DNA from: Candidatus Manganitrophaceae bacterium
GTDB taxonomy: Bacteria; Nitrospirota; Nitrospiria; SBBL01; Manganitrophaceae
Direction: 5' to 3'
Assembly: GCA_016200325.1 (NCBI GenBank)
Contig: JACQEZ010000015.1
Span: forward strand, 1 to 64,000
DNA length: 64,000 nucleotides
The position numbers and the translations under genes are program-made. Every line of letters starts with the position of its first letter. Positions within the stretch are counted from its first letter, which is position 1. The notes below the pieces were generated by a model. That model was not told the origin of the DNA, did not search any database, and saw nothing but the letters and a program-made list of their open reading frames with translations. Shown here in pieces: positions 3-14,583 of this stretch.

Positions 3-56
3 AAGCTACATACCGCCCGCGATATTATCGACTTCGTGAGTGAGACGGAGCAATAA
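3..56 (+). CDS. Acyl carrier protein, C-terminal end (partial)
   Basis: Only the last 17 codons and a TAA stop are inside the window. They read KLHTARDIIDFVSETEQ, which resembles the last helix of acyl carrier proteins, where a hydrophobic-Thr-x-x-Asp-hydrophobic-hydrophobic-x-hydrophobic pattern is usual. The next gene encodes a ketoacyl-ACP synthase, which needs an ACP, so the context fits. The phosphopantetheine serine lies upstream of the window and cannot be checked. The identification rests on a short tail plus context. Confidence 0.5.
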   Translation, partial: KLHTARDIIDFVSETEQ

Positions 57-153
57 TTCTCGTCGAAAGAACAAAAAAGTTGAAATGAGCTGTTGACCTG
101 AAGAACGTCAACACTGGTTCTTATTATAATTCCATGACACAAAGGAGGAGTAA

Positions 154-1752
154 ATGAGTGCAGGAACGGCAGTATTCTATGAGAGAAGGAAGAGCATCGC
201 ACCGATTGATTTTACAGATCGGCGGAGAGCCGAACGAAGAAGTAATTTAGAGTCCCCTTCGTCCGAGCGGAGGCGCCTCGCCTCGCAACTTCGGCGATTT
301 GATCGAGAGGTCATCCGCATCCCCGTTCATCTTCATGTAGATGGAAAAGAGATATCAGGACACACTCAAAATATCAGCTTGAGTGGACTGCTTATATTAA
401 TTAGCGATCCTCTACCAGCAGGCACTCCGGTCACTCTTCAGATTTCTTTTGGCGAAAGTTTCTGTTATTTAAACATCAGTGGTCAAGTTGTCTTCTGTAG
501 CGCGGGAAAAAACAATGGGACTAATCATTATATAAGTGGAATTAAATTTTCTGCCATCCATGATTTCGATCAAAAAATACTTAGCACGGCCATTCACGCA
601 CTCAAGCAAAATACAATAACAGAGGGGAAGTCATCAGTGAGCGTTACCATTGCTAAGGATAACATGTCCCAAGGTATTTTAGATTTTCACTATCAAACCT
701 TGAAATCTCTTGAAGAGAAAGTAAGACCTGCTATTCGAAAATCGACTGTTCACGCGTCAAAAATTGTCGGCTGGGGCTCCTACCTGCCACCCCAAGAGAT
801 CACGGCCGAAGAGATTAATAAAATGTTTAGAGCAGAAGGGTACAAAAATGTCGGAGCGGTTGTTGAGACTCTCACCGGGATTAAGTCACGGCGCTATGCT
901 AGCGCCGATCTTTTTCCCTCTGATTTAGCAGGTATGGCTGCTCGAGATGCGTTGAATAATGCGGGTATGGATGCAAAAGATCTCGATGTAATTATTTATT
1001 GTGGTATAGCCAAAGACTTCGATGAACCCGCCACTGCGATTGTGGTTCAAGATAAAATCGGAGCAAAGGATGCTTACGCTTTTGATCTGGTCAATGCCTG
1101 TAATGGATTTGTTACCGGCATAGATATTCTTGATTCTATGATTGCTTCCGGACGATGTGAAAACGGCATGGTGGTAACGGGCGAAAAAGTATCAATCGCG
1201 ATCGATTGGGAACCAAAGACAAAAGACGATTTTAAATTATGTATCTTCAGCTATACTATTGGGGATGCAGGCGGAGCAGCAGTCTTGACGAGAGCAACGG
1301 TGAATGAACCCAGGGGAATACGTGCGAGATGGTTTTCATCAAACAGTGAGTACTGGAGACTCGCACTTGCGGGCACCCTTGAAGGAGCAAATGAACATAA
1401 TAAATTCTTTAGGTCCCACGGGACTGACCTGGAAACAGCTGCTGTTAAATTAGCTCCGAAGGGATTAGAAAAAATCATGCAGATACTGAATTGGAATATG
1501 GAAGACATCAGTTTAGTCATACCTCACCAGATACCTACAACGTTTACAGACAATCTATATCATAAGGCAATGGGAATTCCGCACGATAAACTAATGTGGA
1601 CATTTCCATATTATGGAAACATTGCTACAGCCAGTATGCCCATTGCAATGTGCGAAGCAATAAGAACAAAAAGAGTTAAACAGGAAGACAAAGTACTATT
1701 AGCCGGGATTGCTGCTGGCTTCAGTGTAGGCCTGATCGGTCTTATTTCATGA
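154..1752 (+). CDS. PilZ domain fused to 3-oxoacyl-ACP synthase III
   Basis: A 532-residue protein with two parts. Residues about 45-150 form a PilZ domain with both c-di-GMP signatures: overlapping RxxxR motifs at Arg47-Arg51 and Arg51-Arg55, and NxSxxG at Asn73-Gly78. Residues about 200-532 form a thiolase-fold ketoacyl synthase of the KAS III (FabH) type, with nucleophile Cys316 in VNACNGF, His458 in IPHQ and Asn489 in YYGN, so the Cys-His-Asn triad is intact. KAS III enzymes condense an acyl thioester with malonyl-ACP. Ordinary FabH is about 320 residues and has no PilZ part. The start has a strong site, AAAGGAGGAG. It follows an ACP tail and is 7 bases from a sensor kinase. Inference: condensation controlled by c-di-GMP, making a specialised lipid or signal. 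The product is unknown. Confidence 0.85.
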   Translation: MSAGTAVFYERRKSIAPIDFTDRRRAERRSNLESPSSERRRLASQLRRFDREVIRIPVHLHVDGKEISGHTQNISLSGLLILISDPLPAGTPVTLQISFGESFCYLNISGQVVFCSAGKNNGTNHYISGIKFSAIHDFDQKILSTAIHALKQNTITEGKSSVSVTIAKDNMSQGILDFHYQTLKSLEEKVRPAIRKSTVHASKIVGWGSYLPPQEITAEEINKMFRAEGYKNVGAVVETLTGIKSRRYASADLFPSDLAGMAARDALNNAGMDAKDLDVIIYCGIAKDFDEPATAIVVQDKIGAKDAYAFDLVNACNGFVTGIDILDSMIASGRCENGMVVTGEKVSIAIDWEPKTKDDFKLCIFSYTIGDAGGAAVLTRATVNEPRGIRARWFSSNSEYWRLALAGTLEGANEHNKFFRSHGTDLETAAVKLAPKGLEKIMQILNWNMEDISLVIPHQIPTTFTDNLYHKAMGIPHDKLMWTFPYYGNIATASMPIAMCEAIRTKRVKQEDKVLLAGIAAGFSVGLIGLIS

Positions 1753-1759
1753 AGGAATA

Positions 1760-4700
1760 ATGGAAGCATTCCAAGACAACCTTGCAGTAGGTTTAGGCTT
1801 AACAGCCGCTGCCACATTTCTTCTTGGGCTTTTTGTATCTTTGAACAAAAGGAAGGAATCTCTTGGATTAATTTTTTTCTTTTATTGTATCTCCATCTCA
1901 TGGTGGAGTCTTCTTGAACTGCTGCTAATCACAAATACAAATAAAGAATCAGCCTTATTAATAGGCAGGAGCATGGAAGCAGGGGTTCCCTATATTCCTA
2001 CCCTCCTGGTACATTTTGTCACTATCCTGCTCGAAAACCCTCTTGCTCGCTGGAAATTGGTTATCCTCTATTCGGTGAGCATATTTCTCAGTATGCTTTT
2101 TTTCACTAATCTGATGATCTCAGATGTAATCCAAAGAACTGATATCAATTTTATGATCGTGCCTGGACCTTTTTATTCACTTCTATTAATCTTCTTTGCC
2201 TTTTGTATCTCTTATGGCCATCTAAAACTCTTCCAGGCATATATCTCATCAAAGGGATCTAAGAGAGTTCAGATGGGGTATTACCTGTGGTCATCCATAG
2301 CGGGTTACCTTGGCGGCAGTTCAAACTTCCTCTTGGTTTATGACGTTAGGATCCCATTTCTTAATAGCTATGGAACATATGCCGTACCGCTGTATGTTGG
2401 GGCCACCACTTATGCAATAGTCCGCTATCAGTTAATGGATATTCGAACCGTCATTCATAAGACGGCGATGTGGCTGACCACCTCGTCGCTGGCCCTTATG
2501 CCCATTCTGTTTACAACTATATGGGCCAGACCGTGGATAACAAACCTTTCTGATTTTCAACTTTCCACTATGATCGCTCTCCATTTTCTCTTACTGGTTT
2601 TCTACATCAAAACGGTTCAACCGCGCATCGACCATCTCTTCCAGCGTCGAAAGTATGACATGCAAAAAATACTGCAGGGAATGGTCAAAGAACTAACTCT
2701 ATTAAAGGATTTGAAGGGATTAACCGAAAAGATTGTATCCACAATTCGGGAGGCGCTATACGTTTCTCATTCTTCCATAGTATTGTGGGATGTGAAGAAA
2801 TCTCAGTATGCTTATGTGGGAAACGAAAGTACTCAAATTGATTTTAGAGCTCACGCTCCATTTTTAAACTGGATGCAGAAAGAAGATCGAGTCATCGAGT
2901 CTATGGAACTTGAGGCCGATCCACGGCATGAAAACGTTAAAGCATCGGCTCATCGCTATTTCGAAGCCTTTTCAGCCAAGGTTGCACTTCCTCTAATCCA
3001 TGACCAAAAACTGATAGGGATCATTAACCTCGGGGAAAAAGACAATCTCAAACCATTTACCCGCTCGGATATTGAATTCCTCTCAAATCTAAGAATCGAA
3101 GCCTCCATTGCCCTCTCCAATTCGCTCTTATATGATGATGTTCACAAAATGTCCGAAACACTCCGGCAGTGGGCATTAGACTTAGAAAGAAAGGTCGAAG
3201 AGCGGACCCGTGAGTTGTCCGAAAGCAAGGCGGAGTTGGAGCGCTCTTATCAAAAACTCCAAGAGCTCGATCAAGTCAAAACCCAGTTCTTCGCCAATAT
3301 CTCCCATGAGCTTCGCACCCCTCTCACACTGATCCTGGCCCCGCTGGAATCGATGCTCCATCGGGAGACGCTGCAAAACGACCGACGGGAAGACTTAAAC
3401 AGCATGTATCAAAACGGCCTTCGCCTTCTCAAGTTGATCAACAACCTTCTCGATTTGGCCAAGATCGACGCCGGGAAGATGCAGCTCTCCTACTCAAAAG
3501 CGGACTTTACAAAATTCATTAAAGGGATTATTGCCTCCATTACACCTTTGGCGGAGAAGAAGGAAATCTCTCTCTCCTTCACCTGTCCCGATCCGATCGA
3601 TGAATTCTATTTCGATCGAGATAAGATCGAAAAGGTTCTTCTAAATCTGATCTTCAATGCCATCAAGTTCACCCCGGTCGGTGGAAAGGTCGAAGTCTCC
3701 TGCGAGCAGAGCGTCGATCAGGTGTTCGTTAAAGTAACCGATACGGGGATCGGCATCGCCGCGGAAAACCTCCACAAGCTCTTCAACCGTTTTTCTCAAG
3801 TCGATGCCTCTTCCAGCCGCCGGTTTGAGGGAACCGGGATCGGGCTGGCCCTCTCGAAGGAGTTAATCGAGCTTCATAAAGGAGAAATCTCGGCAGAGAG
3901 TAAGCTGGGTAGCGGGACGACCATGACCTTTACCATTCCCTTTCTTGATGCCCCCGTTTTCATCTCCGAGGAAAAAGAGGAAGGGAGTCAGGATTGGACC
4001 CGCTCGTTGCATCAAGCGGCAGAATATGCGACCGCCGGCATTGTCCAAGAGTCGCAACCGATTCAGAACACCGTCTCAGGCAGCCGGCCCGGCACGCCGA
4101 AGCTTCTGGTGGTCGAAGACAATCCCGACATGCTCCACTTTCTGGCGGCTCAACTCCAAGATGACTATTATATCATTACGGCTCAGAATGGGGTGGAGGG
4201 GGTACAGCGGGCTCAGTCGGAGCTGCCGAGCTTAATTCTCTCCGATGTCATGATGCCGATCAAAGACGGCTATCAACTCTGTCGAGAGATCAAGGAAAAC
4301 CCGCTGACCAAGCAGATCCCGGTCGTCTTGATCTCGGCCAAAGCGGACCTCTCGATGAAGATCGAGGGATTGGAATATGGCGCCGACGATTATCTCACAA
4401 AGCCGTTTAGCTGCGAGGAGCTTCGGGCCCGGATCAAGTCGCTCCTCAACCAGCGCGGTCTGGAAGCCCAGCTGATTCATTCGGAAAAGATGGCGGCCCT
4501 CGGCCTGCTCGTCGCCGGGATGGCGCACGAGATCAACAACCCGATCAGCTTCGCCAAGGTCAGTCTGGAGAACCTTCGTAGCGCGCTCGACGAGCACGAG
4601 CGGCTTGCAAAAGAGGGGGCGACCCTCGACAGCGCCGAGATCAACCGATTAAATGAGAAAATCGGCCGGGCCATCTCGATCATCAAAACAGGGTTGGACC

Positions 4701-5221
4701 GGACCGAGACCATCATCTCCGACCTGAAAGCTTTCGTCAGAAAAGACGAGGCCCAATTCAGACCGATCGACCTCCATGCAGGATTTGATTCGACACTCAA
4801 TTTAATGCGTCCAGAGCTCAAGGATCGCATTATCGTCACCAAGGAATACGGGGAGATCGGCTTGATCGAAGCGGTTCCCGGCCAGATCAATCAGGTTTTC
4901 ATGAACTTGCTGCAGAATGCGATCCATGCCATTCCGGACAAAGGGGAGATCCGCATTAAAACGTGGAAAGAAGAAGGGTGGGTGAAGGTCTCGGTGAAAG
5001 ACAGCGGAACGGGCATTCCGATGGAAAATCAAAAACGGATCTTTGAGCCTTTCTTCACCACGAAAGAGGTCGGAAAGGGAACCGACCTCGGGCTTTCGGT
5101 CAGCTATCGTATCCTTCAGAGCCATGGGGGAGAGATTTCCGTCTACAGCCAGGCGGGACAAGGGACCGAGTTTATTCTCACGCTGCCCGCTCGACAGGCC
5201 CTCAGCGTCGTGCGGCATTAA
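1760..5221 (+). CDS. Membrane hybrid histidine kinase: 7TM-like, GAF, HK, REC, HK
   Basis: An 1153-residue multidomain kinase. Residues about 10-290 hold seven or eight hydrophobic segments, like the 7TM sensor region of some histidine kinases. A GAF domain follows (about 308-465), then a coiled coil (470-505), a HisKA domain with phospho-acceptor His516 in ISHELRTP, and an HATPase domain (about 615-730). Next is a receiver with Asp829 in LSDVMMP, then a second HisKA-like region with His923 in GMAHEINNP and a second HATPase domain (about 1040-1150). Two kinase cores around a receiver suggest an internal phosphorelay. It starts 7 bases after the PilZ-KASIII gene and is probably cotranscribed with it. 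Base composition is AT-richer up to about base 3150 and GC-richer after it, so the sensor and kinase halves may have different origins. The ligand is unknown. Confidence 0.9.
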   Translation: MEAFQDNLAVGLGLTAAATFLLGLFVSLNKRKESLGLIFFFYCISISWWSLLELLLITNTNKESALLIGRSMEAGVPYIPTLLVHFVTILLENPLARWKLVILYSVSIFLSMLFFTNLMISDVIQRTDINFMIVPGPFYSLLLIFFAFCISYGHLKLFQAYISSKGSKRVQMGYYLWSSIAGYLGGSSNFLLVYDVRIPFLNSYGTYAVPLYVGATTYAIVRYQLMDIRTVIHKTAMWLTTSSLALMPILFTTIWARPWITNLSDFQLSTMIALHFLLLVFYIKTVQPRIDHLFQRRKYDMQKILQGMVKELTLLKDLKGLTEKIVSTIREALYVSHSSIVLWDVKKSQYAYVGNESTQIDFRAHAPFLNWMQKEDRVIESMELEADPRHENVKASAHRYFEAFSAKVALPLIHDQKLIGIINLGEKDNLKPFTRSDIEFLSNLRIEASIALSNSLLYDDVHKMSETLRQWALDLERKVEERTRELSESKAELERSYQKLQELDQVKTQFFANISHELRTPLTLILAPLESMLHRETLQNDRREDLNSMYQNGLRLLKLINNLLDLAKIDAGKMQLSYSKADFTKFIKGIIASITPLAEKKEISLSFTCPDPIDEFYFDRDKIEKVLLNLIFNAIKFTPVGGKVEVSCEQSVDQVFVKVTDTGIGIAAENLHKLFNRFSQVDASSSRRFEGTGIGLALSKELIELHKGEISAESKLGSGTTMTFTIPFLDAPVFISEEKEEGSQDWTRSLHQAAEYATAGIVQESQPIQNTVSGSRPGTPKLLVVEDNPDMLHFLAAQLQDDYYIITAQNGVEGVQRAQSELPSLILSDVMMPIKDGYQLCREIKENPLTKQIPVVLISAKADLSMKIEGLEYGADDYLTKPFSCEELRARIKSLLNQRGLEAQLIHSEKMAALGLLVAGMAHEINNPISFAKVSLENLRSALDEHERLAKEGATLDSAEINRLNEKIGRAISIIKTGLDRTETIISDLKAFVRKDEAQFRPIDLHAGFDSTLNLMRPELKDRIIVTKEYGEIGLIEAVPGQINQVFMNLLQNAIHAIPDKGEIRIKTWKEEGWVKVSVKDSGTGIPMENQKRIFEPFFTTKEVGKGTDLGLSVSYRILQSHGGEISVYSQAGQGTEFILTLPARQALSVVRH

Positions 5222-5250
5222 TCCGCAGATCACTCCTTTCAGGAGCTCTT

Positions 5251-6441
5251 ATGCAATCTGGACCTGACCACAAAGAATACCCGGTGCTCTTTGTCGATGA
5301 TGAAGAGATGGCCTTGCTCAGCCTCGCGGAGCTCTATGAGCGGGAGTTCACGGTTTATACGGCGAAGAGCGGCCGGGAGGCGATCGAGATCCTTCAGGCC
5401 CATCCCGAGATCGCGGTGATTATCAGCGATCAGAGAATGCCGGGCATGACCGGCGTTGAAGTCCTCGCCGAAGCGAGAAAGATCTGTCCGGATGCCGTCC
5501 GGATGCTCCTGACCGCCTACACCGAAATGGAGATGGTCATCGAAGCGATCAACAAAGGGAATATCTACCGCTACATCTCGAAGCCCTATGACGTCGCCGA
5601 GCTTCGCTGTGCCATGCTCCAGGGGGTGGAGCACCACTGTCTCGTGAAAGAGCGAGACCGGCTTTATGCGGAAAAAATCGAGACGCTCAAGCGGGTCGCA
5701 CGAACCAACCGCCTCACCGCCATCGGCACGTTGGCCGCCGGGATGGCGCACGAGATCAACAACCCGATGGTGGCGATTTACACCTTCCTTCAGATGCTCC
5801 CACAAAAACTCCAGGAGTCGCGACTCGACAAAGAATATTTCGATCACTTCTATCAGCTCTCGATTCGCGAGGCGGAGAGAATCCAGACGCTGATCCGGAA
5901 ACTGCTCGACTTCTCTAAGGGAGCCGATCAGGATACCCTTTCGCTCAAAGAAGAAAGCCTTAATCTCCTCTTACAAGAAGTCGTCACCCTCCTCAAACAC
6001 GAAGCCGGCAAGAAAGGGATCGAGTTCGACCTTCAACTCGCCCCCGATCTCCCCCCCATCAAAATAGATCAGGAGAAGATCAAGCAAGTTTTTTTAAATC
6101 TCATTTTAAATGCCATCCAGGCCACCGCCACCGGGAAGATCACCCTGATGACCTCTTACCAGGCGGACCCCTCCCCCACTCTGGTCAAAGTGGTCGTCGC
6201 CGATACCGGCGCCGGCATTTCAGAGGAAAATTTGGAAAAACTCTTCAATCCCTTTTTCACGACGAAGGAGGCGGAGGGAACCGGATTGGGCTTGATGATT
6301 TGCCACCATATCGTCGACCAACACCGTGGAAATATCGACGTCACCTCCCAAATCGGAAAGGGAACGAAAGTCACCCTCCAGATGCCGCTCGATCCCCTTC
6401 AGCACGAACGCCGCAAAACAGAAAGGCGAGACAGCCGTTAA
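5251..6441 (+). CDS. Response regulator-histidine kinase (REC-HisKA-HATPase)
   Basis: A 396-residue soluble protein. An N-terminal receiver (about 10-125) has phospho-acceptor Asp60 in ISDQRMP and Lys in the YISKP motif. It is joined to a HisKA-like domain with His167 in GMAHEINNP and an HATPase domain with N-box NLILNAIQA and GTGLGL. The kinase part is close to the second kinase core of the preceding gene, including the AxGMAHEINNP sequence, so the two probably share ancestry. It lies 29 bases downstream of the hybrid kinase in the same direction and is likely its phosphorelay partner. No DNA-binding output domain is present. The C-terminus is strongly basic (ERRKTERRDSR). Confidence 0.88.
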   Translation: MQSGPDHKEYPVLFVDDEEMALLSLAELYEREFTVYTAKSGREAIEILQAHPEIAVIISDQRMPGMTGVEVLAEARKICPDAVRMLLTAYTEMEMVIEAINKGNIYRYISKPYDVAELRCAMLQGVEHHCLVKERDRLYAEKIETLKRVARTNRLTAIGTLAAGMAHEINNPMVAIYTFLQMLPQKLQESRLDKEYFDHFYQLSIREAERIQTLIRKLLDFSKGADQDTLSLKEESLNLLLQEVVTLLKHEAGKKGIEFDLQLAPDLPPIKIDQEKIKQVFLNLILNAIQATATGKITLMTSYQADPSPTLVKVVVADTGAGISEENLEKLFNPFFTTKEAEGTGLGLMICHHIVDQHRGNIDVTSQIGKGTKVTLQMPLDPLQHERRKTERRDSR

Positions 6442-6617
6442 CAGCGCCTGCCATCGGCTCCGATCAGGGCGTCTCCCAAAGAGAGCGATCAAACGGGATT
6501 CGCTTCTCAGCCCTCCTGTAACTCACCGGCAGGGGACGGGAGACGCATCAACCCGGAATCCGAAACCGTCTCAATCCACCCTCCACCCCTTGTGCCATTA
6601 CTCATTACCTCCGAGAC

Positions 6618-6646
6618 TTGACTTCTCAAATCGATCTGTATAGACA
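6618..6646 (+). promoter_or_regulatory. Possible sigma-70 promoter for the YtxH gene
   Basis: TTGACT at 6618-6623 resembles a -35 box, and TAGACA lies 17 bases downstream at 6641-6646. TATAGA at 6639-6644 is an alternative with a 15-base spacer. The -10 match is weak. The site lies in the 275-base gap between the response-regulator kinase and the YtxH gene, which otherwise shows nothing recognisable. Confidence 0.3.
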
Positions 6647-6716
6647 ATAGAATATCTTTTTTAACCGAGACTCGGAGCGGCCATCGCCTCTCCCTCATCC
6701 TGAAAAAGGAGGAAAC

Positions 6717-7016
6717 ATGAAAGGGGAATCCCGTTTTGCTTTTGGTCTGCTGATGTTCTTGGCAGGCCTGGCCGCCGGCGCATTGGCAGGGGTGCTGTTC
6801 GCCCCTCGGTCGGGCAGAGAAACTCAAAAAGATTTAAGAGGGCTTGCGAACGAAACCGGGAAGCGCTTCGGTCGCATCACCGAAAAAACAAGAGAGTCCC
6901 TCGCCGGCGCGGCAGACCAGGGAAAACAGTGGGCAAACGACGCCCAAGAACACCTCAAATCGATCGGTCAAGCGGCATCGAAGGTCGTTGACGAAGGGAG
7001 GGAGTTCACACGCTAA
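6717..7016 (+). CDS. YtxH domain-containing protein
   Basis: A 99-residue protein with one N-terminal membrane helix (about residues 7-27, rich in Ala, Gly and Leu) followed by FAPRSGRETQ, the hallmark of YtxH (gas-vesicle-GvpP-like) proteins. The rest is a charged, probably helical tail. The function of the family is not settled; several members are linked to general or salt stress. A strong ribosome-binding site, AAGGAGG, precedes the ATG. The gene stands alone, with a stem-loop right after it, and is probably a single-gene transcript. Confidence 0.8.
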   Translation: MKGESRFAFGLLMFLAGLAAGALAGVLFAPRSGRETQKDLRGLANETGKRFGRITEKTRESLAGAADQGKQWANDAQEHLKSIGQAASKVVDEGREFTR

Positions 7017-7022
7017 GGTCTA

Positions 7023-7058
7023 GTGGATCCCGCAGGTCGGACAGCCCGCGGGATCCAC
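7023..7058 (+). terminator. Perfect 11-bp stem-loop after the YtxH gene
   Basis: GTGGATCCCGC at 7023-7033 is the exact reverse complement of GCGGGATCCAC at 7048-7058, with a 14-base loop. It starts 6 bases after the YtxH stop. There is no U-run after it, so it may stabilise the mRNA 3' end or act with a factor and not as a classical intrinsic terminator. The remaining bases up to the glgE start at 7240 hold nothing else recognised. Confidence 0.5.
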
Positions 7059-7239
7059 CGATACATTCAATCAGCGAATTTACCGATTAGATGCCTAGGA
7101 AATTTGCAAAAGTCGCTCCAAAATCATCCTACAGAAACCAGCCTCAGTTTACCTTCCCCACCCGGATCAGTTACAATAAAACAAACGACGGCCGGTCCTC
7201 TCGAGATGAAATAATTGAAGAGAGCTCTCCGTCAAAAAA

Positions 7240-9243
7240 ATGAAACGTTTGGGAACAATGACTCAATCCAAAAACCTCCAGCCACGTTTTCCGGACCAGG
7301 CACAGCAGCGGGTGATGATCGAACGGGTTGCGCCGGAAATCGACGCCGGTCGTTATCCGATCAAGCGAACGCCCGGGGAAAAGGTCGTCGTGACCGCCGC
7401 CATTTTCGCCGATGGTCACGACCGTATCGCCGCCCGGCTCCTCTATAAACCGGTCACGGAAGAGAGGTGGCAAGAGACGCTGATGGAGCCGCTCGGCAAT
7501 GATGCTTGGAGCGGAACGTTCGTCCCGGCCGATGCGCGCCATTATCATTACACCCTGGAGGCGTGGATCGACCGGTTTGTTTCATGGCGGGACGATCTGG
7601 CCAAACGGATCAACGCCGGCCAGGAGGTCGGCAGCGAACTGCTGGAAGGGGCCGGCCTCGTCTCCGATGCCGCCAAGCGGGCCGCCGGAGAAGATCAAGA
7701 GCGGCTGCGCGAGCATGCCGGAATTTTGTCGGGTTCGTTGCCTCAGGAACTGCGCATTGAGGTCGCGCTGCATGAATCGCTCGACACCCTGATGTCGCGG
7801 TATCCCGACCGAAGCCGCGCCACCCGGTACGAGCGGACACTCGAAGTCCGTGTAGAGCGGGAACGGGCGCGCTACAGCGCCTGGTACGAAATGTTTCCCC
7901 GATCAGCCGGTCCCGATCCGGCGCGCAGCGCCACCTTTGGGGAGGCGGCCTCACGCATCCCGGAGATCGCGTCGATGGGATTCGACGTCCTCTATCTTCC
8001 CCCGATCCATCCGATCGGAAAAAAATTTCGCAAGGGGCCCAACAATGCGTTGAGGGCGGGGCCAGGCGATCCGGGAAGCCCCTGGGCGATCGGATCGGAA
8101 GCGGGCGGACACAAAGCGGTCGATCCGGGACTCGGCACGCTGGAAGATTTTCGGCAGTTCGTCGCGGCGGCCAATCGACAGGGGCTGGAAGTCGCCCTCG
8201 ACATCGCCTTCCAATGCTCCCCCGATCACCCCTATGTGAAGGAGCATCCCGAGTGGTTTCTCCACCGCCCCGACGGAACGATCAAATACGCGGAGAATCC
8301 GCCGAAGAAATATCAGGACATCTATCCATTCAATTTCGAGTGTGACGATTGGCGAGGACTCTGGACGGAGTTGAAAAGCGTCATCGAATTTTGGATCGAC
8401 CAGGGGGTGAAGATCTTCCGCGTCGACAATCCCCACACCAAGCCGCTTCGCTTCTGGTTCTGGCTGATCGGCGAGATCCAGAAAAAACACCCGGAGACGA
8501 TCTTCCTCGCCGAGGCCTTCACCCGACCGAAGATCATGTATGCGCTCGCCAAAGGGGGATTCACGCAATCTTACACCTACTTTACCTGGCGCAATGCAAA
8601 ACAGGAGCTGATCGACTACGTCACTGAGCTGACCCAGACGGAGGTGCGGGAGTACTTTCGTCCGAATTTCTTCGCGAACACCCCCGACATTCTCCACGCC
8701 TATCTGCAGACCGGCGGCCGACCGGCCTTTCAGGCGCGGCTCGTCCTCGCCGCAACGCTGGCGGCGAATTATGGGATCTACAGCGGCTATGAGCTCTGTG
8801 AGAGCCGCGCCGTTCCCGGAACGGAAGAGTATCAAGATTCAGAGAAGTACCAGGTCCGCGCCTGGGATTGGGAGCGCCCCGGCAACATCAAGGAGCTCGT
8901 CGCCCGCGTCAATCGAATCCGGGGAGAGAACCGGGCGCTCCATTTTAACGACCGGCTTCGCTTCTGCGCCATTAACAACGACCAGATTCTCTGCTATACA
9001 AAGACGACGGAAGATCTCTCGAACAGCCTCCTCATTGCGGTAAACCTCGACCCGCACCATCCGCAATACGGGTGGGTCCAGGTTCCGATTCACGAGCTCG
9101 GTATTGAGACGGATGAAAGCTATCCGGTTCACGATCTGATCACCGATGTCCGCTATCAATGGCGCGGCGAGTGGAACTATATCCGGCTCGATCCGGCGGT
9201 CATGCCGGCTCACATTTTCAGCGTGAATCCAAAACTCCCTTAA
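7240..9243 (+). CDS. glgE: Alpha-1,4-glucan:maltose-1-phosphate maltosyltransferase GlgE
   Basis: A 667-residue GH13_3 enzyme that transfers maltosyl units from maltose-1-phosphate to alpha-1,4-glucan. The N-terminal beta-sandwich (about 30-130) and helical insert precede a TIM barrel. The family-typical GPNNALRAGPGDPGSPWAIG stretch is present, as are nucleophile Asp396 in RVDNPHTKP and acid/base Glu425 in LAEAFTRP. Length and residue spacing match characterised GlgE proteins. The start is uncertain: ATG at 7240 and ATG at 7258 are in frame and neither has a strong ribosome-binding site. It begins a cluster with the trehalose synthase-maltokinase fusion and glgB, so the full trehalose-to-glucan route is encoded. 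Confidence 0.95.
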   Translation: MKRLGTMTQSKNLQPRFPDQAQQRVMIERVAPEIDAGRYPIKRTPGEKVVVTAAIFADGHDRIAARLLYKPVTEERWQETLMEPLGNDAWSGTFVPADARHYHYTLEAWIDRFVSWRDDLAKRINAGQEVGSELLEGAGLVSDAAKRAAGEDQERLREHAGILSGSLPQELRIEVALHESLDTLMSRYPDRSRATRYERTLEVRVERERARYSAWYEMFPRSAGPDPARSATFGEAASRIPEIASMGFDVLYLPPIHPIGKKFRKGPNNALRAGPGDPGSPWAIGSEAGGHKAVDPGLGTLEDFRQFVAAANRQGLEVALDIAFQCSPDHPYVKEHPEWFLHRPDGTIKYAENPPKKYQDIYPFNFECDDWRGLWTELKSVIEFWIDQGVKIFRVDNPHTKPLRFWFWLIGEIQKKHPETIFLAEAFTRPKIMYALAKGGFTQSYTYFTWRNAKQELIDYVTELTQTEVREYFRPNFFANTPDILHAYLQTGGRPAFQARLVLAATLAANYGIYSGYELCESRAVPGTEEYQDSEKYQVRAWDWERPGNIKELVARVNRIRGENRALHFNDRLRFCAINNDQILCYTKTTEDLSNSLLIAVNLDPHHPQYGWVQVPIHELGIETDESYPVHDLITDVRYQWRGEWNYIRLDPAVMPAHIFSVNPKLP

Positions 9244-9267
9244 TAAAAGATAAAAGGGACGGGATAG

Positions 9268-9298
9268 AGAGACCCGGCGACGGGCCTCTTGGTTTTTT
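9268..9298 (+). terminator. Attenuator-like hairpin with T-run between glgE and treS
   Basis: Left arm 9268-9276 (AGAGACCCG) pairs with right arm 9281-9289 (CGGGCCTCT), with one A-C mismatch and a GCGA tetraloop. A run of six T at 9293-9298 follows. This looks like a weak intrinsic terminator inside the operon and could lower expression of treS-mak and glgB relative to glgE. It has not been tested. Confidence 0.45.
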
Positions 9299-9325
9299 CA
9301 ATCAAATCAAAGCGAGGAGATCTGA

Positions 9326-12300
9326 ATGTCCGAAAAGGAGTTTCAGGCGGATGACGATCCTCAATGGTTTAAGGACGCCATTATTTATCAGCTCCATATC
9401 AAAGCGTTTTTCGATGGGACCGGCGACGGGATCGGCGATTTTAAAGGGCTGACCGAAAAATTAGATTACCTGAAAGACCTCGGGGTCACGGCGATCTGGG
9501 TCCTCCCCTTCTATCCCTCTCCGATGCGGGATGACGGCTATGACATCGCCGACTACTTCAGCGTCAACCCCGATTACGGGACGATGCGCGACTTCAAGGA
9601 GTTTTTAAAAGAGGCCCATCGGCGCTGCATCCGCGTGATCACCGAACTCGTCTTAAATCACACTTCGGATCAACATCAATGGTTCCAGCGGGCCCGGCGT
9701 TCCAGTCCGGGCTCTCATTGGCGGGACTTCTATGTCTGGAGCGACACCCCTGAGAAATACAAAGAGGCCCGGATCATTTTTAAAGATTTTGAGACCTCCA
9801 ACTGGACCTGGGATCCGGTGGCAAAAGCATACTACTGGCACCGGTTCTACTCCCACCAGCCCGACCTGAATTTCGACAACCCGCAAGTCCAGAAGGCGAT
9901 GCTCCGGGTGATGGAGCAGTGGCTGGAGCTGGGGGTCGACGGATTGCGGCTCGATGCCATTCCGTACCTTTACGAGCGGGAGGGAACCAATTGCGAGAAC
10001 CTCCCCGAGACCTATGAATTCTTGAAAAAGCTCCGCTCCCGCGTCGACGCCCAGTTTAAAAACAGGATGCTTCTGGCCGAGGCCAATCAGTGGCCGGAGG
10101 ATGCCGTCGCCTACTTCGGCAAGGGAGACTCCTGCCACATGGCGTTTCACTTTCCGTTGATGCCGCGGATCTTCATGGCGCTCCGGATGGAGGACCGCTT
10201 TCCGATCATCGATATCTTGGAGCAGACCCCCGCGATCCCGGAGAACTGCCAATGGGCGATCTTCTTGCGCAATCATGACGAGCTGACGCTGGAGATGGTA
10301 ACCGATGAAGAGCGCGACTACATGTACCGCATTTACGCGCGCGACCCGAAGATGCGGATCAACCTCGGCATTCGGCGGCGGCTCGCCCCGCTGCTGGAGA
10401 ATGATCGGAGAAAAATAGAACTGATGAACGTCCTCCTCTTCTCCCTCCCCGGAACCCCGGTGATCTATTATGGGGATGAGATCGGCATGGGGGACAACTT
10501 TTATCTCGGCGATCGAAACGGGGTCCGGACCCCGATGCAGTGGAATGCCGATCGAAACGCCGGCTTCTCGCGCGCCAACCCGCAGAAGCTCTATCTCCCG
10601 GCGATCATCGATCCGGAGTACCATTATGAAGCGGTCAATGTCGAGAATCAGGAGCGCAACCACTCCTCGCTTCTCTGGAGCATGAAGCGGTTCATCGCCA
10701 CCCGGAAGAACTACAAAGCGTTCGGACGGGGGACGCTGGAGTTTCTCCACTCCGACAATCCAAAGGTCCTCGCCTTCCTCCGGCAATATGAAGAGGAGAC
10801 GATCCTCGTCGTGGTGAACCTCTCCCGGCACTCCCAGATCGCCGAGCTCGATCTCTCCAAATTCGTCGGCTATGTCCCTCAGACCCTCTTCAGCCGGACC
10901 AAATTCCCGGCGATCCGGGATGGGCGTTACAGTGTCACCCTCGGCACCTACGGCTATTATCGTTTTCTCCTCAGAAGAGGCGAAGAGGCGATCTCGGCCG
11001 CGAGTCGCCGGACCGTTCCGGAGCTTCAGATCAGCGGGCAGTGGCTCCAGGCGTTGGAAGGGAAAGAGCGGGAACGGCTGGAGAGAGGAATCCTCCCCGC
11101 TTACATCGTCGGATGCCGATGGTTCGGCGGAAAAGCCCGCCAGATCGAGCAGCTCCGGATTGCCGAGACAATTCCGATCGGGCGGAATGGAGAGGCGGGC
11201 CGGCTGCTCTTCTTGCAAATCGAATACACGGAGGGGATTCCGGAGACCTATCTTCTCCCGGTCGCTTTCGCTTCGCGTGATGCAGCGGCGCGGATCGAAG
11301 AAGAGGCCCCGCTGGCGGTCATCGCCCGCCTCACCGTCGGGACGACCGGCATTCTCTATGACGCCGTTTACAGCGAGGCTTTCCGCCGTCATCTCCTCTC
11401 GATGATCTCGAAGAGACAGCATGTCCGGGGAGCCGCGGGAGAATTAATCGGCTCCCCGGGAGAGCGTTTTAAAGACCTGGCATCGGGCCAGAACCTCTCC
11501 GAATCACAAGTCCTCCGCGGCGATCAGACCAACACCTCGATTTTGTACGACCATGCCTTCTTCTTCAAGCTCTACCGCCGGCTGGATGAGGGGGTCAATC
11601 CCGATCTGGAGGTCGGACGGTACCTCACCGAGCAGACCCCCCCGTTCCCGCGAATTCCTCCCTTCGCGGGGGCGATCGAATACCGCAAAAACGGCGCGGA
11701 GCCGATCGTCATCGGATTGCTGCAAGGCTATGTCCAGAACGAGGGGGACGCGTGGCGATATACGGTCGATGCGGTCTCCCGCTTCTTCGAGCGGGTCCTC
11801 TCCATCCGAGGCGAGGTCCGCGAGCTCCCTCCCTCTCCCCCTTCTATTTATGAGACCGCTTACCGAGAGGTCCCCCCACTCCTTCAAGAGCTCATCAGCA
11901 CCGTCCTGCTGGAGATGGCGTCGGTGCTCGGCAAACGGACCGCCGAATTTCATCTGGCGCTCGCTTCAAATACCGAGGACCCGGCCTTTGCGCCGGAGCC
12001 GTATACCCTCCTCTATCAACGCTCCATCTTTCAGGGGATGCAAAGCCGGGGACGTCGGACCTTTCAACTTCTGAGAAACAATCTCAAATACCTCCCGGCC
12101 GCCGTTCAAGCCAAGGCTCAGAACGTTCTGGATATCGAACCGCAGATTTTGGAGCGTTTTAAAGTAATCTACAAGAAAAAGCTCTCGACGATTAAATTTA
12201 GGACCCACGGCGACTACCATCTGGGCCAGGTCCTTTATACGGGGAATGACTTTTTCCTCATCGACTTCGAAGGAGAGCCGACGCGGCCCTTAAGCGAGCG

Positions 12301-12655
12301 GCGCCTCAAGCGCTCCCCTTTTCGGGATGTCGCCGGAATGATCCGGTCGTTCCATTACAAGGCCCACACCGGATTGATCACGCAGTCTTCTATCCGCGCC
12401 GAGGATATCCCGATACTTGAACCTTGGGGCGATTTATGGTATCGATACATGGCCGGGGCGTTTCTCAGGTCCTACCTCGATACCGCCGGGGATTCTCCAT
12501 TCGTTCCCAAGGAACGGGAAGAGATCGAGATCTTGTTGAATATGTTTCTTCTGGATAAAGCGATTTATGAAATCGCCTATGAGTTAAACAATCGTCCCGA
12601 ATGGGTCGTGATCCCGCTGAAGGGGATCGCCCATCTGATGGAGACCGCACAATGA
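9326..12655 (+). CDS. treS: Trehalose synthase-maltokinase fusion (TreS-Mak)
   Basis: An 1109-residue bifunctional protein. Residues 1-550 are a GH13_16 trehalose synthase, which interconverts trehalose and maltose, with nucleophile Asp210 in LRLDAIPYL, acid/base Glu252 in LLAEANQWP and [10 protein letters not shown]. Residues about 570-1109 are a maltokinase with an aminoglycoside-phosphotransferase-like fold: HGDYHLGQ with catalytic Asp963, and the metal-binding IDFEGEP motif. It would convert trehalose to maltose and then phosphorylate it with ATP, giving the GlgE substrate. Separate and fused forms are both known in bacteria. The ribosome-binding site GAGGAG precedes the ATG, and the stop overlaps the glgB start (ATGA). 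Confidence 0.95.
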
Positions 12656-14583
12656 GTGGAAGTCAACGCATGAAAGGGGCCGCCCCCCAGATCAGCCTCC
12701 TCACCGACCACGATATCTATCTGCTGAAAGAAGGAAGCCACTTCCAGCTTCACCACAAAATGGGGGCCCACCCGATTGCCGAGAATGGTCTCCGCGGGGT
12801 CTACTTTGCCGTCTGGGCGCCGAATGCGGAGTCGGTCTCGGTCGTCGGCGACTTCAACGACTGGAACCGGAGCGCTCATCCTCTGATCGTCCGTCCAGAC
12901 GGCTCGGGGGTCTGGGAAGGGTTTTTCTCCGACGTCGGGGTCGGCGCGATCTATAAATATCACATCGCTTCCGGGCATCATCAATATGAGGTCGACAAGG
13001 GAGACCCGTTTGCTTTTTGGTGGGAACTCCCTCCCCGAACCGCATCGGTCGTCTGGGATTTGGGATATGAATGGGGCGATCAGGGGTGGATGTCGCAGCG
13101 GGCAAAGGCGAACCACCTCCGCGCGCCGATCTCCATCTACGAGATGCACCTCGGCTCCTGGCGCCGGGTGCCGGAGGAGGGGAATCGGCCGCTCACCTAT
13201 CGAGAGCTGGCCAAGCCGCTGACCGAATATCTGCAGGAGACCGGTTTCACCCATGTGGAATTTCTGCCGCTCACCGAGCACCCCTTCTACGGCTCCTGGG
13301 GGTATCAGACGACCGGCTACTTCGCCCCGAGCCACCGGTACGGAACGCCGCAAGATCTGATGTACCTGATCGACACCCTCCATCAAAACGGCATCGGCGT
13401 CATTCTCGACTGGGTTCCCTCCCACTTTCCGACCGATCAGCACGGACCGGCCTACTTCGACGGAACCCACCTCTACGAGCATGCCGATCCCCGCAAGGGA
13501 TACCACCCCGACTGGAACAGCTCCATCTTCAACTACGGCCGGAATGAAGTTCAAGCCTTTCTCATCAGCAGCGCCCTTTTCTGGCTCGAGAAATATCACA
13601 TCGACGGGCTCCGGATCGACGCGGTCGCCTCGATGCTCTATCTCGATTATTCGAGAAAGTCGGGCGAGTGGATTCCCAACATGTACGGCGGGCGGGAAAA
13701 TCTAGAAGCGATCTCTCTGCTGAAGCGATTGAACGAAGCGATCTACGGCGCGTTCCCCGACGTGCAGACCTATGCGGAGGAGTCGACCGCCTGGCCGATG
13801 GTCTCCCGCCCCGTGTATGTCGGCGGGCTCGGCTTCGGGATGAAGTGGAACATGGGCTGGATGCACGACACCCTCTCCTACTTCTCCAATGATCCGGTGT
13901 TTAGAAAATACCACCAAAACCAGCTGACCTTCAGCATCTGGTATGCCTTTTTCGAAAATTTCGTCCTTCCCCTCTCTCATGACGAGGTGGTCCATGGAAA
14001 GGGATCGCTCCTCTCCAAGATGCCGGGAGACGGCTGGCAGAAGTTCGCCAACCTGCGGCTGCTCTTCGGCTACATGTTTACCCACCCCGGGAAGAAGCTT
14101 CTCTTTATGGGGGGAGAGTTCGGCCAAGGCCGCGAGTGGAACCATGAGGAGAGCCTCGAATGGCATCTGCTCCAATACCCGCAACACCAGCAGGTGAAGC
14201 AGTGGCTCAGCGACGTCAATCGGTTCTACCGGAACGAGCCGGCGCTGCATCAGAAAGATTTCGATCAGTCGGGCTTCGAGTGGATTGACTTCGGCGACGC
14301 GGGGGCGAGCGTCATCAGCTATCTCCGCCGCGGAGACGATCCGAACGACGTGATCGTCATGGCCTTCAACTTTACCCCGGTCCCGCGTCTTCATTACCGG
14401 ATCGGCGTTCCCTTTGAAGGGTTTTGGCAGGAGCGGCTCAACAGCGACTCGGCCTTCTACGGCGGAAGCAACCTCGGAAACGGCGGCGGGGTGAATGCCG
14501 AGCCGATTCAATCCCACGGCCGGACCCACTCGATTGAGATCACGATTCCCCCGCTGGGGATGGTGGCGCTTAAGAGAGGGTAA
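12652..14583 (+). CDS. glgB: 1,4-alpha-glucan branching enzyme GlgB
   Basis: A 643-residue GH13_9 branching enzyme. It starts with a CBM48 module (about 40-130) and continues with the catalytic barrel: nucleophile Asp323 in [10 protein letters not shown], acid/base Glu376 in YAEESTAWP and [12 protein letters not shown]. It introduces alpha-1,6 branches into the glucan made by GlgE. I chose ATG 12652 because it overlaps the upstream stop in an ATGA arrangement, which fits translational coupling; the reading frame extends to 12601 but that would intrude on the previous gene. A strong bidirectional terminator follows at 14746-14783. Confidence 0.95.

Follow-up and report, generated by a model that had tools for sequence, protein, structure and literature searches.

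A PilZ-condensing enzyme fusion and its membrane kinase in Candidatus Manganitrophaceae: a probable Phc-type signal-synthase/receptor cassette

We analysed a 64,000-nt stretch of DNA from a Candidatus Manganitrophaceae bacterium (assembly GCA_016200325.1, contig JACQEZ010000015.1, positions 1 to 64,000; hereafter the window), with which contig C15 of a 4.2 Mb genome (G000) begins. The host and Candidatus Manganitrophus sp. GAC4 (G004, CP114561.1) are members of one genus. Near the beginning of the window, three consecutive genes encode a PilZ domain fused to a 3-oxoacyl-acyl carrier protein synthase III (KAS III; gene A), a hybrid histidine kinase with a seven-transmembrane (7TM) sensor (gene B) and a receiver-histidine kinase protein (gene C). 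We conclude that these genes are likely to form a Phc-type cassette of signal synthase and receptor kinase, in which cyclic di-GMP (c-di-GMP) probably acts as a gate. The initial annotation of this DNA had suggested either a new synthase/receptor pair or a control unit for a special membrane lipid. The pair is strongly supported, by the adjacency of enzyme and kinase genes, a sensor that follows the enzyme, joint exchange at a single site and one allele that matches the phcBSRQ layout; the best reading of the locus is that it makes a cell-to-cell signal.

Searching related genomes with the gene A protein, we found orthologues in G004 (67% identity) and in G020 and G021 (61%), as well as other long genes that were matched by their PilZ part alone. 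In these, the same PilZ module was fused to a TENA-like protein, an acyl-CoA dehydrogenase or an aldehyde dehydrogenase (G002; the PilZ is weak in the last), to a methyltransferase (G005), and to FabF or, as an acyl carrier protein (ACP)-PilZ-4HBT-thioesterase fusion, to a thioesterase (G036). A wider census, which scored only the best candidates per genome, added KAS III (G173, G410, G420), TENA-like/haem-oxygenase-like proteins (G350, G412, G417), 3-hydroxy-3-methylglutaryl-CoA (HMG-CoA) reductase (G324) and a LuxD acyltransferase-methyltransferase (G260), and a sensor search (see below) contributed a further PilZ-KAS III fusion in G414 (45% identity). Within the class Nitrospiria, PilZ was found with about ten types of enzyme partner (acyl, lipid or ketone enzymes), and a histidine kinase gene lay directly downstream of the fusion, on the same strand, in 19 of the 19 readable loci. 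A control census covered 299 genomes of the phylum to which a Burkholderiales genome belongs; its single match was weak, to a stand-alone PilZ protein of 121 residues. When the contigs of named genomes were searched with the gene A protein alone, no match was obtained, and an alignment of the KAS part recovered only the orthologues of GAC4 and NC_groundwater_1765 together with distant KAS III genes.

Two related arrangements were seen along the way. A large PilZ-like/LuxD-type acyltransferase/methyltransferase fusion stands beside a 7TM kinase at positions 4928-10963 of locus L171 (G175:C1) and at loci L151-L170; the LuxD-methyltransferase and 7TM kinase combination is present in many genomes of one genus of the Nitrospira family and is a candidate for fatty acid methyl ester signalling in nitrifiers. 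In addition, a small 4HBT thioesterase gene lacking a PilZ fusion adjoins one 7TM kinase gene in G000 (L173, G000:C13:52000-67000, 4721-7927) and sits between two such genes in G005 (L172, 5755-11803).

The sensor of the kinase follows the enzyme. We compared sensors and kinase cores of KAS, TENA and HMG-CoA reductase loci from different bacterial families by label permutation. Mean sensor identity was 49.3% for loci with the same enzyme (23 pairs) versus 30.0% for loci with different enzymes (38 pairs; p = 5e-5), whereas the kinase cores showed no effect (39.4% versus 36.6%; p = 0.18). Among eight KAS loci, the identity of the KAS domains correlated closely with that of the sensors (r = 0.91, Mantel p = 1.5e-4), the corresponding value for the cores being r = 0.35. 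This is exemplified by the window and G173, both with KAS III, whose sensors are 46% identical but whose kinase cores are only 26% identical, and by the congeneric G410 (KAS III) and G412 (TENA), with cores at 92% and sensors at 29% identity. Enzyme and sensor thus covary independently of the kinase core, the behaviour looked for in a synthase/receptor pair. In the reverse direction, a profile of seven KAS-type sensors was run against 269 Nitrospiria genomes and the best-match loci were fetched (n = 30, one per genome). A candidate synthase gene lay beside the sensor in 29 of them, namely KAS in eight (seven of which were sources of the profile), LuxD-methyltransferase in 20 and a thioesterase in one; the remaining locus had none. 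In G414, which is outside the profile, the neighbour was the PilZ-KAS III gene.

Comparison within Ca. Manganitrophus shows that synthase and sensor are also exchanged together at one site. There, the locus lies between TPR/receiver genes and the receiver-kinase gene C, and the same site holds KAS III, acyl-CoA dehydrogenase or PhcB-like methyltransferase cassettes that are unrelated apart from PilZ. Synthase and sensor change jointly, while the kinase core stays (91-97% identical). Between G004 and G002, the upstream flank is 94-95% identical, the synthase domains are unrelated, and identity reaches 95.7% again from within the kinase gene onward; inside that gene, it rises abruptly from about 40% to 75-100% at nucleotide 660 (codon ~220), where the 7TM domain ends. 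The same jump separates G004 from G005 at about nucleotide 1440-1500 (codon ~485), just before HisKA. The base composition of the window fits a separate history of the cassette: gene A and the sensor have 40-45% GC, and the stretch between position 4000 and the end of gene C has 54-56%. A second locus, located with gene C, repeats the pattern: it carries PilZ fused to HMG-CoA reductase in G000 and G005 and to an alpha-oxoamine synthase in G003, with no synthase in G002, and its kinase cores are 82-98% identical, the sensors of different alleles 26-32%. In G000, this second cassette consists of PilZ-HMG-CoA reductase, a 7TM hybrid kinase and a receiver-kinase with 55% identity to gene C (L105, G000:C8:141000-155000, 2837-9268).

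One of the exchanged alleles connects the locus to a known signalling system. In Ralstonia, the methyltransferase PhcB makes methyl 3-hydroxy fatty acids that are sensed by the kinase PhcS; PhcR consists of a receiver and a kinase without a DNA-binding domain, and PhcQ is a receiver protein (PMC8578825, PMC10653808). The G005 allele comprises a PhcB-like methyltransferase, a MASE8 kinase and a receiver-kinase, each homologous to its counterpart in Burkholderiales operons, which were assigned by the published phcBSRQ layout and not by comparison with named Phc proteins. Two Burkholderiales genomes found with the G005 methyltransferase encode a methyltransferase, a MASE8-like kinase, a receiver-kinase and a receiver in this order; the methyltransferases match at about 25% identity (E 6e-43), and gene C aligns from end to end with the Burkholderiales receiver-kinase (383 residues, 26% identity, E 4e-31). 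Gene C thus has the PhcR layout of receiver and histidine kinase without a DNA-binding domain, whereas the PhcB-type synthase is found at the same site in G005 and not in the window, which has KAS III instead. Overall, the window locus shares with PhcBSRQ the order synthase, membrane kinase, receiver-kinase. It also shares the joint variation of synthase and sensor against a downstream part that follows the strain: PhcB and PhcS of Ralstonia group by signal type, and PhcR and PhcQ by phylotype (PMC8578825). It differs in that the enzyme is a PilZ-KAS III fusion rather than a methyltransferase, the sensor is 7TM rather than MASE8, the kinase is a GAF-containing hybrid and no phcQ-like gene follows. 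As a side observation, the conjugative Paraburkholderia graminis plasmid pPHS1_P (NZ_CP024936.1; L111, 5440-9815) carries genes for a methyltransferase, a MASE8-like kinase and two response regulators and resembles a mobile phc-type operon.

Other systems were more distant. CqsA-CqsS and LqsA-LqsS, which are alpha-hydroxyketone systems, likewise place a synthase beside a membrane sensor kinase. The enzyme of the window is KAS III, but in a sister species the PilZ partner at the second locus (L106) comes from the alpha-oxoamine synthase superfamily, to which CqsA and LqsA belong. That partner is not a CqsA, being closer to BioF/Kbl/serine palmitoyltransferase (NF005526, 243 bits against a cut-off of 428; 2wk8, E 4e-44). 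LvrA/LvrB of Leptospira resembles the locus in having a receiver-kinase protein after a hybrid kinase that contains two kinase units (NF047465, 387 bits), but the scores of 387 against 1200 and 131 against 500 bits (NCBIfam LvrA and LvrB cut-offs) reject membership, and we know of no synthase in that system. A search of the open-access literature found no paper on this gene arrangement.

The features of the locus are listed in Table 1. The initial annotation had described gene A as a PilZ-KAS III fusion with both c-di-GMP-binding motifs and an intact Cys-His-Asn triad, and Pfam and seven orthologues agree. The large membrane sensor hybrid kinase that it placed next to gene A is gene B, with HisKA_7TM, GAF, HisKA-HATPase, receiver and a second HisKA-HATPase in this order (Pfam); its range of 3-6441 takes in gene C as well. 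Genes A and B are separated by 7 bases, B and C by 29. Sigma-70-like sites in the DNA searched showed no excess over chance.

Table 1. Features of the signalling locus (window coordinates)
Feature	Position	Strand	Basis
Acyl carrier protein truncated at the contig start, last 17 residues	3-56	+	translation KLHTARDIIDFVSETEQ*
Gene A: PilZ-KAS III fusion, proposed signal synthase	154-1752	+	532 aa; Pfam; orthologues at 44-66% identity
Gene A, PilZ domain, residues 45-137	286-564	+	PF07238, E 2.8e-13
Gene A, RxxxR c-di-GMP motif, R47-R51	292-306	+	R47 and R51 unchanged across 12 PilZ modules with different enzyme partners
Gene A, NxSxxG c-di-GMP motif, N73-G78	370-387	+	in the 12 modules, G78 invariant, S75 in at least 90%
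Gene A, KAS III domain with C316/H458/N489; Glu E291 where FabH has Phe	748-1746	+	Pfam; alignments
Gene B: membrane hybrid histidine kinase, proposed receptor	1760-5221	+	1153 aa; Pfam
Gene B, 7TM sensor (HisKA_7TM, residues 14-228), part changing with the synthase	1799-2443	+	PF16927, E 7.1e-13; sensor/enzyme covariation
Gene B, first HisKA-HATPase kinase core, kept across swapped cassettes	3278-3943	+	Pfam; core comparison
Gene B, receiver domain	4106-4438	+	PF00072, E 1.4e-25
Gene C: receiver + HisKA + HATPase protein, PhcR-like layout	5251-6441	+	Pfam; match to receiver-kinase of phcBSRQ layout

Gene A belongs to KAS III, since it has both the N and C domains of ACP_syn_III (Pfam E 8.8e-15 and 5.3e-21) and the Cys-His-Asn triad; C316, H458 and N489 are invariant in the seven orthologues. 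It shares the fold family and the triad with OleA, PpyS, FabH and PqsD but is distant from the solved FabH, OleA and PqsD (22-30% identity for FabH and OleA) and carries the PilZ domain as an N-terminal extra. By overall score, the KAS domain falls between FabH and OleA, slightly better to FabH, and a test for OleA/PpyS-like enzymes (NF006720) gave 187 bits against a cut-off of 285. A housekeeping FabH was rejected (TIGR00747, 187.7 bits against 292.1), and the genome has two further KAS III genes at other sites. E291, also invariant in the seven orthologues, aligns in the printed alignments with a Phe of FabH structures, which we take to be the residue limiting the acyl pocket. In PpyS-like enzymes, which make photopyrones, a catalytic Glu reaches into the active site of the partner subunit (PMC4901931). 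E291 presumably occupies the place of this OleA/PpyS Glu, for which the OleA variants E117A/Q/D are present in the PDB. Furthermore, the catalytic Cys and His are 142 residues apart both in gene A (316 to 458) and in OleA (143 to 285). Because of E291 and this spacing, our best guess for the product is a long-chain beta-keto acid, ketone or alpha-pyrone, as for OleA/PpyS-like enzymes. An AlphaFold model of gene A was of poor quality (pLDDT 53), and the matches to FabH and OleA obtained with it add nothing over the sequence.

An ACP upstream of gene A had been called from its last 17 residues only, and the call holds. The carrier-protein family search of the genome gave one match running into a contig end (C18:65218-65364; C18 ends at 65371): the N-terminal 58 residues of an ACP, ending in IEIHG and carrying the DSIDL phosphopantetheine motif. 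It is preceded by TPR and receiver genes, the same ones that border the kinase locus in GAC4 and G002 (62-74% identity). From this shared flank, C18 appears to abut C15, with the joining sequence absent from the assembly, so the ACP at the window start is real. About 7-9 kb before the C18 end, just upstream of the locus, lies a stand-alone PhcB-like methyltransferase gene (37% to the G005 enzyme) followed by one for a MASE8-like kinase (L140, G000:C18:52000-65371, 4021-6544, minus strand).

In the mechanism that we propose, the KAS III part of gene A would condense acyl thioesters, probably delivered in part by the upstream-encoded ACP, into a small lipid-derived molecule, and binding of c-di-GMP to the PilZ part would switch or tune the enzyme. 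The 7TM domain of kinase B would sense the product within or across the membrane, and the kinase would pass phosphate via its own receiver to the receiver-kinase protein C. We infer that the ligand of kinase B is the product of gene A, that this molecule leaves the cell and that the phosphorelay runs from B to C.

Several observations weigh against a c-di-GMP-gated signalling cassette. There are few independent swap events, and the loci compared are related and not fully independent, a dependence that matters for the permutation, which does not model a tree. G002 retains a KAS-type sensor without a KAS gene: this is the locus without an enzyme in the reverse test, an upstream kinase at the same site (L036, G002:C2, 4558-8478), possibly an eavesdropping receptor or the remnant of an earlier cassette. 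No ACP adjoins the PilZ-KAS gene in the orthologous loci of G004, G020 and G021, so the three-gene linkage whose absence the initial annotation had named as refuting its reading holds for KAS and kinase, which are always linked, and not for the ACP, an optional part of the locus. Finally, PilZ is degenerate in some relatives: RxxxR is absent in G417, and in the window's genome the second-locus fusion to HMG-CoA reductase has DIGLKG in place of D/NxSxxG. The PilZ-module profile also failed to match the stand-alone methyltransferase of the window's genome, and gating by c-di-GMP is therefore not universal in the family.

These PilZ findings bear on the alternative that fares best, a synthase/receptor pair without c-di-GMP control, in which PilZ is dead or binds protein, for example as a docking platform for ACP or the kinase. 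Examples of PilZ domains without c-di-GMP binding are known, and the Burkholderiales methyltransferases gave no PilZ match. However, in gene A the PilZ domain has both the RxxxR and D/NxSxxG motifs of the c-di-GMP receptors, and R47, R51, S75 and G78 are invariant in the seven orthologues. Across the 12 aligned modules with unrelated enzyme partners, whose columns average 48% identity, R47, R51 and G78 never vary and S75 hardly does. We consider the alternative unlikely for gene A, and binding and gating by c-di-GMP plausible, judging from these motifs; about 30 GGDEF domains are encoded in the window's genome.

Somewhat less probable still is the membrane-lipid control unit, in which the lipid or precursor made by gene A would stay in the cell and the 7TM kinase would sense the lipid state of the membrane as feedback. 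KAS III, FabF, ACP and thioesterase have roles in lipid metabolism, the sensor sits in the membrane, c-di-GMP is often tied to surface life, and covariation of sensor and enzyme would also be expected if the kinase sensed a product that is not secreted. Against this, the same or a paralogous site holds a PhcB-like methyltransferase, an HMG-CoA reductase or an alpha-oxoamine synthase, which have no common membrane-lipid product, and the operon layout of one allele corresponds to that of a proven quorum-sensing system (PMC8578825). The lipid unit is thus judged less likely than the synthase/receptor pair while retaining a small share of the probability. An ordinary operon is very improbable. In it, the kinase would control a metabolic enzyme, or be controlled by it, but not sense what the enzyme makes, and adjacency would be incidental or a matter of co-expression. 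Kinases do often adjoin the genes they control, but this leaves unexplained why the sensor domain alone, not the kinase core, follows the enzyme and why the recombination breakpoints fall at the end of the sensor domain.

Extending the signal-synthase/receptor reading beyond the window, we lean, with moderate confidence, towards the view that Nitrospiria have modular chemical languages. PilZ would be combined with about ten signal enzymes, each having its own 7TM or MASE8 receptor and being swapped jointly with it before a resident kinase, such that strains of one genus would switch signal and c-di-GMP would time its synthesis. If this is true, Nitrospira-type nitrifiers and the Manganitrophus group have in these cassettes candidate cell-to-cell signalling systems in which a protein fusion links c-di-GMP directly to the making of the signal. 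The receptor domains, paired with synthases of differing chemistry, would form a natural set. As sensor and synthase are exchanged as a unit, comparison of neighbouring alleles can reveal what the ligand is. The LuxD-methyltransferase version, which stands beside a 7TM kinase in many Nitrospira-family genomes, should allow a test in a cultivated nitrifier.

After the signalling locus, the window contains three genes of alpha-glucan metabolism (7240-14583), identified by reading only as maltosyltransferase-like, trehalose synthase-maltokinase-like and branching-enzyme-like, the first of which is also present in sister species.

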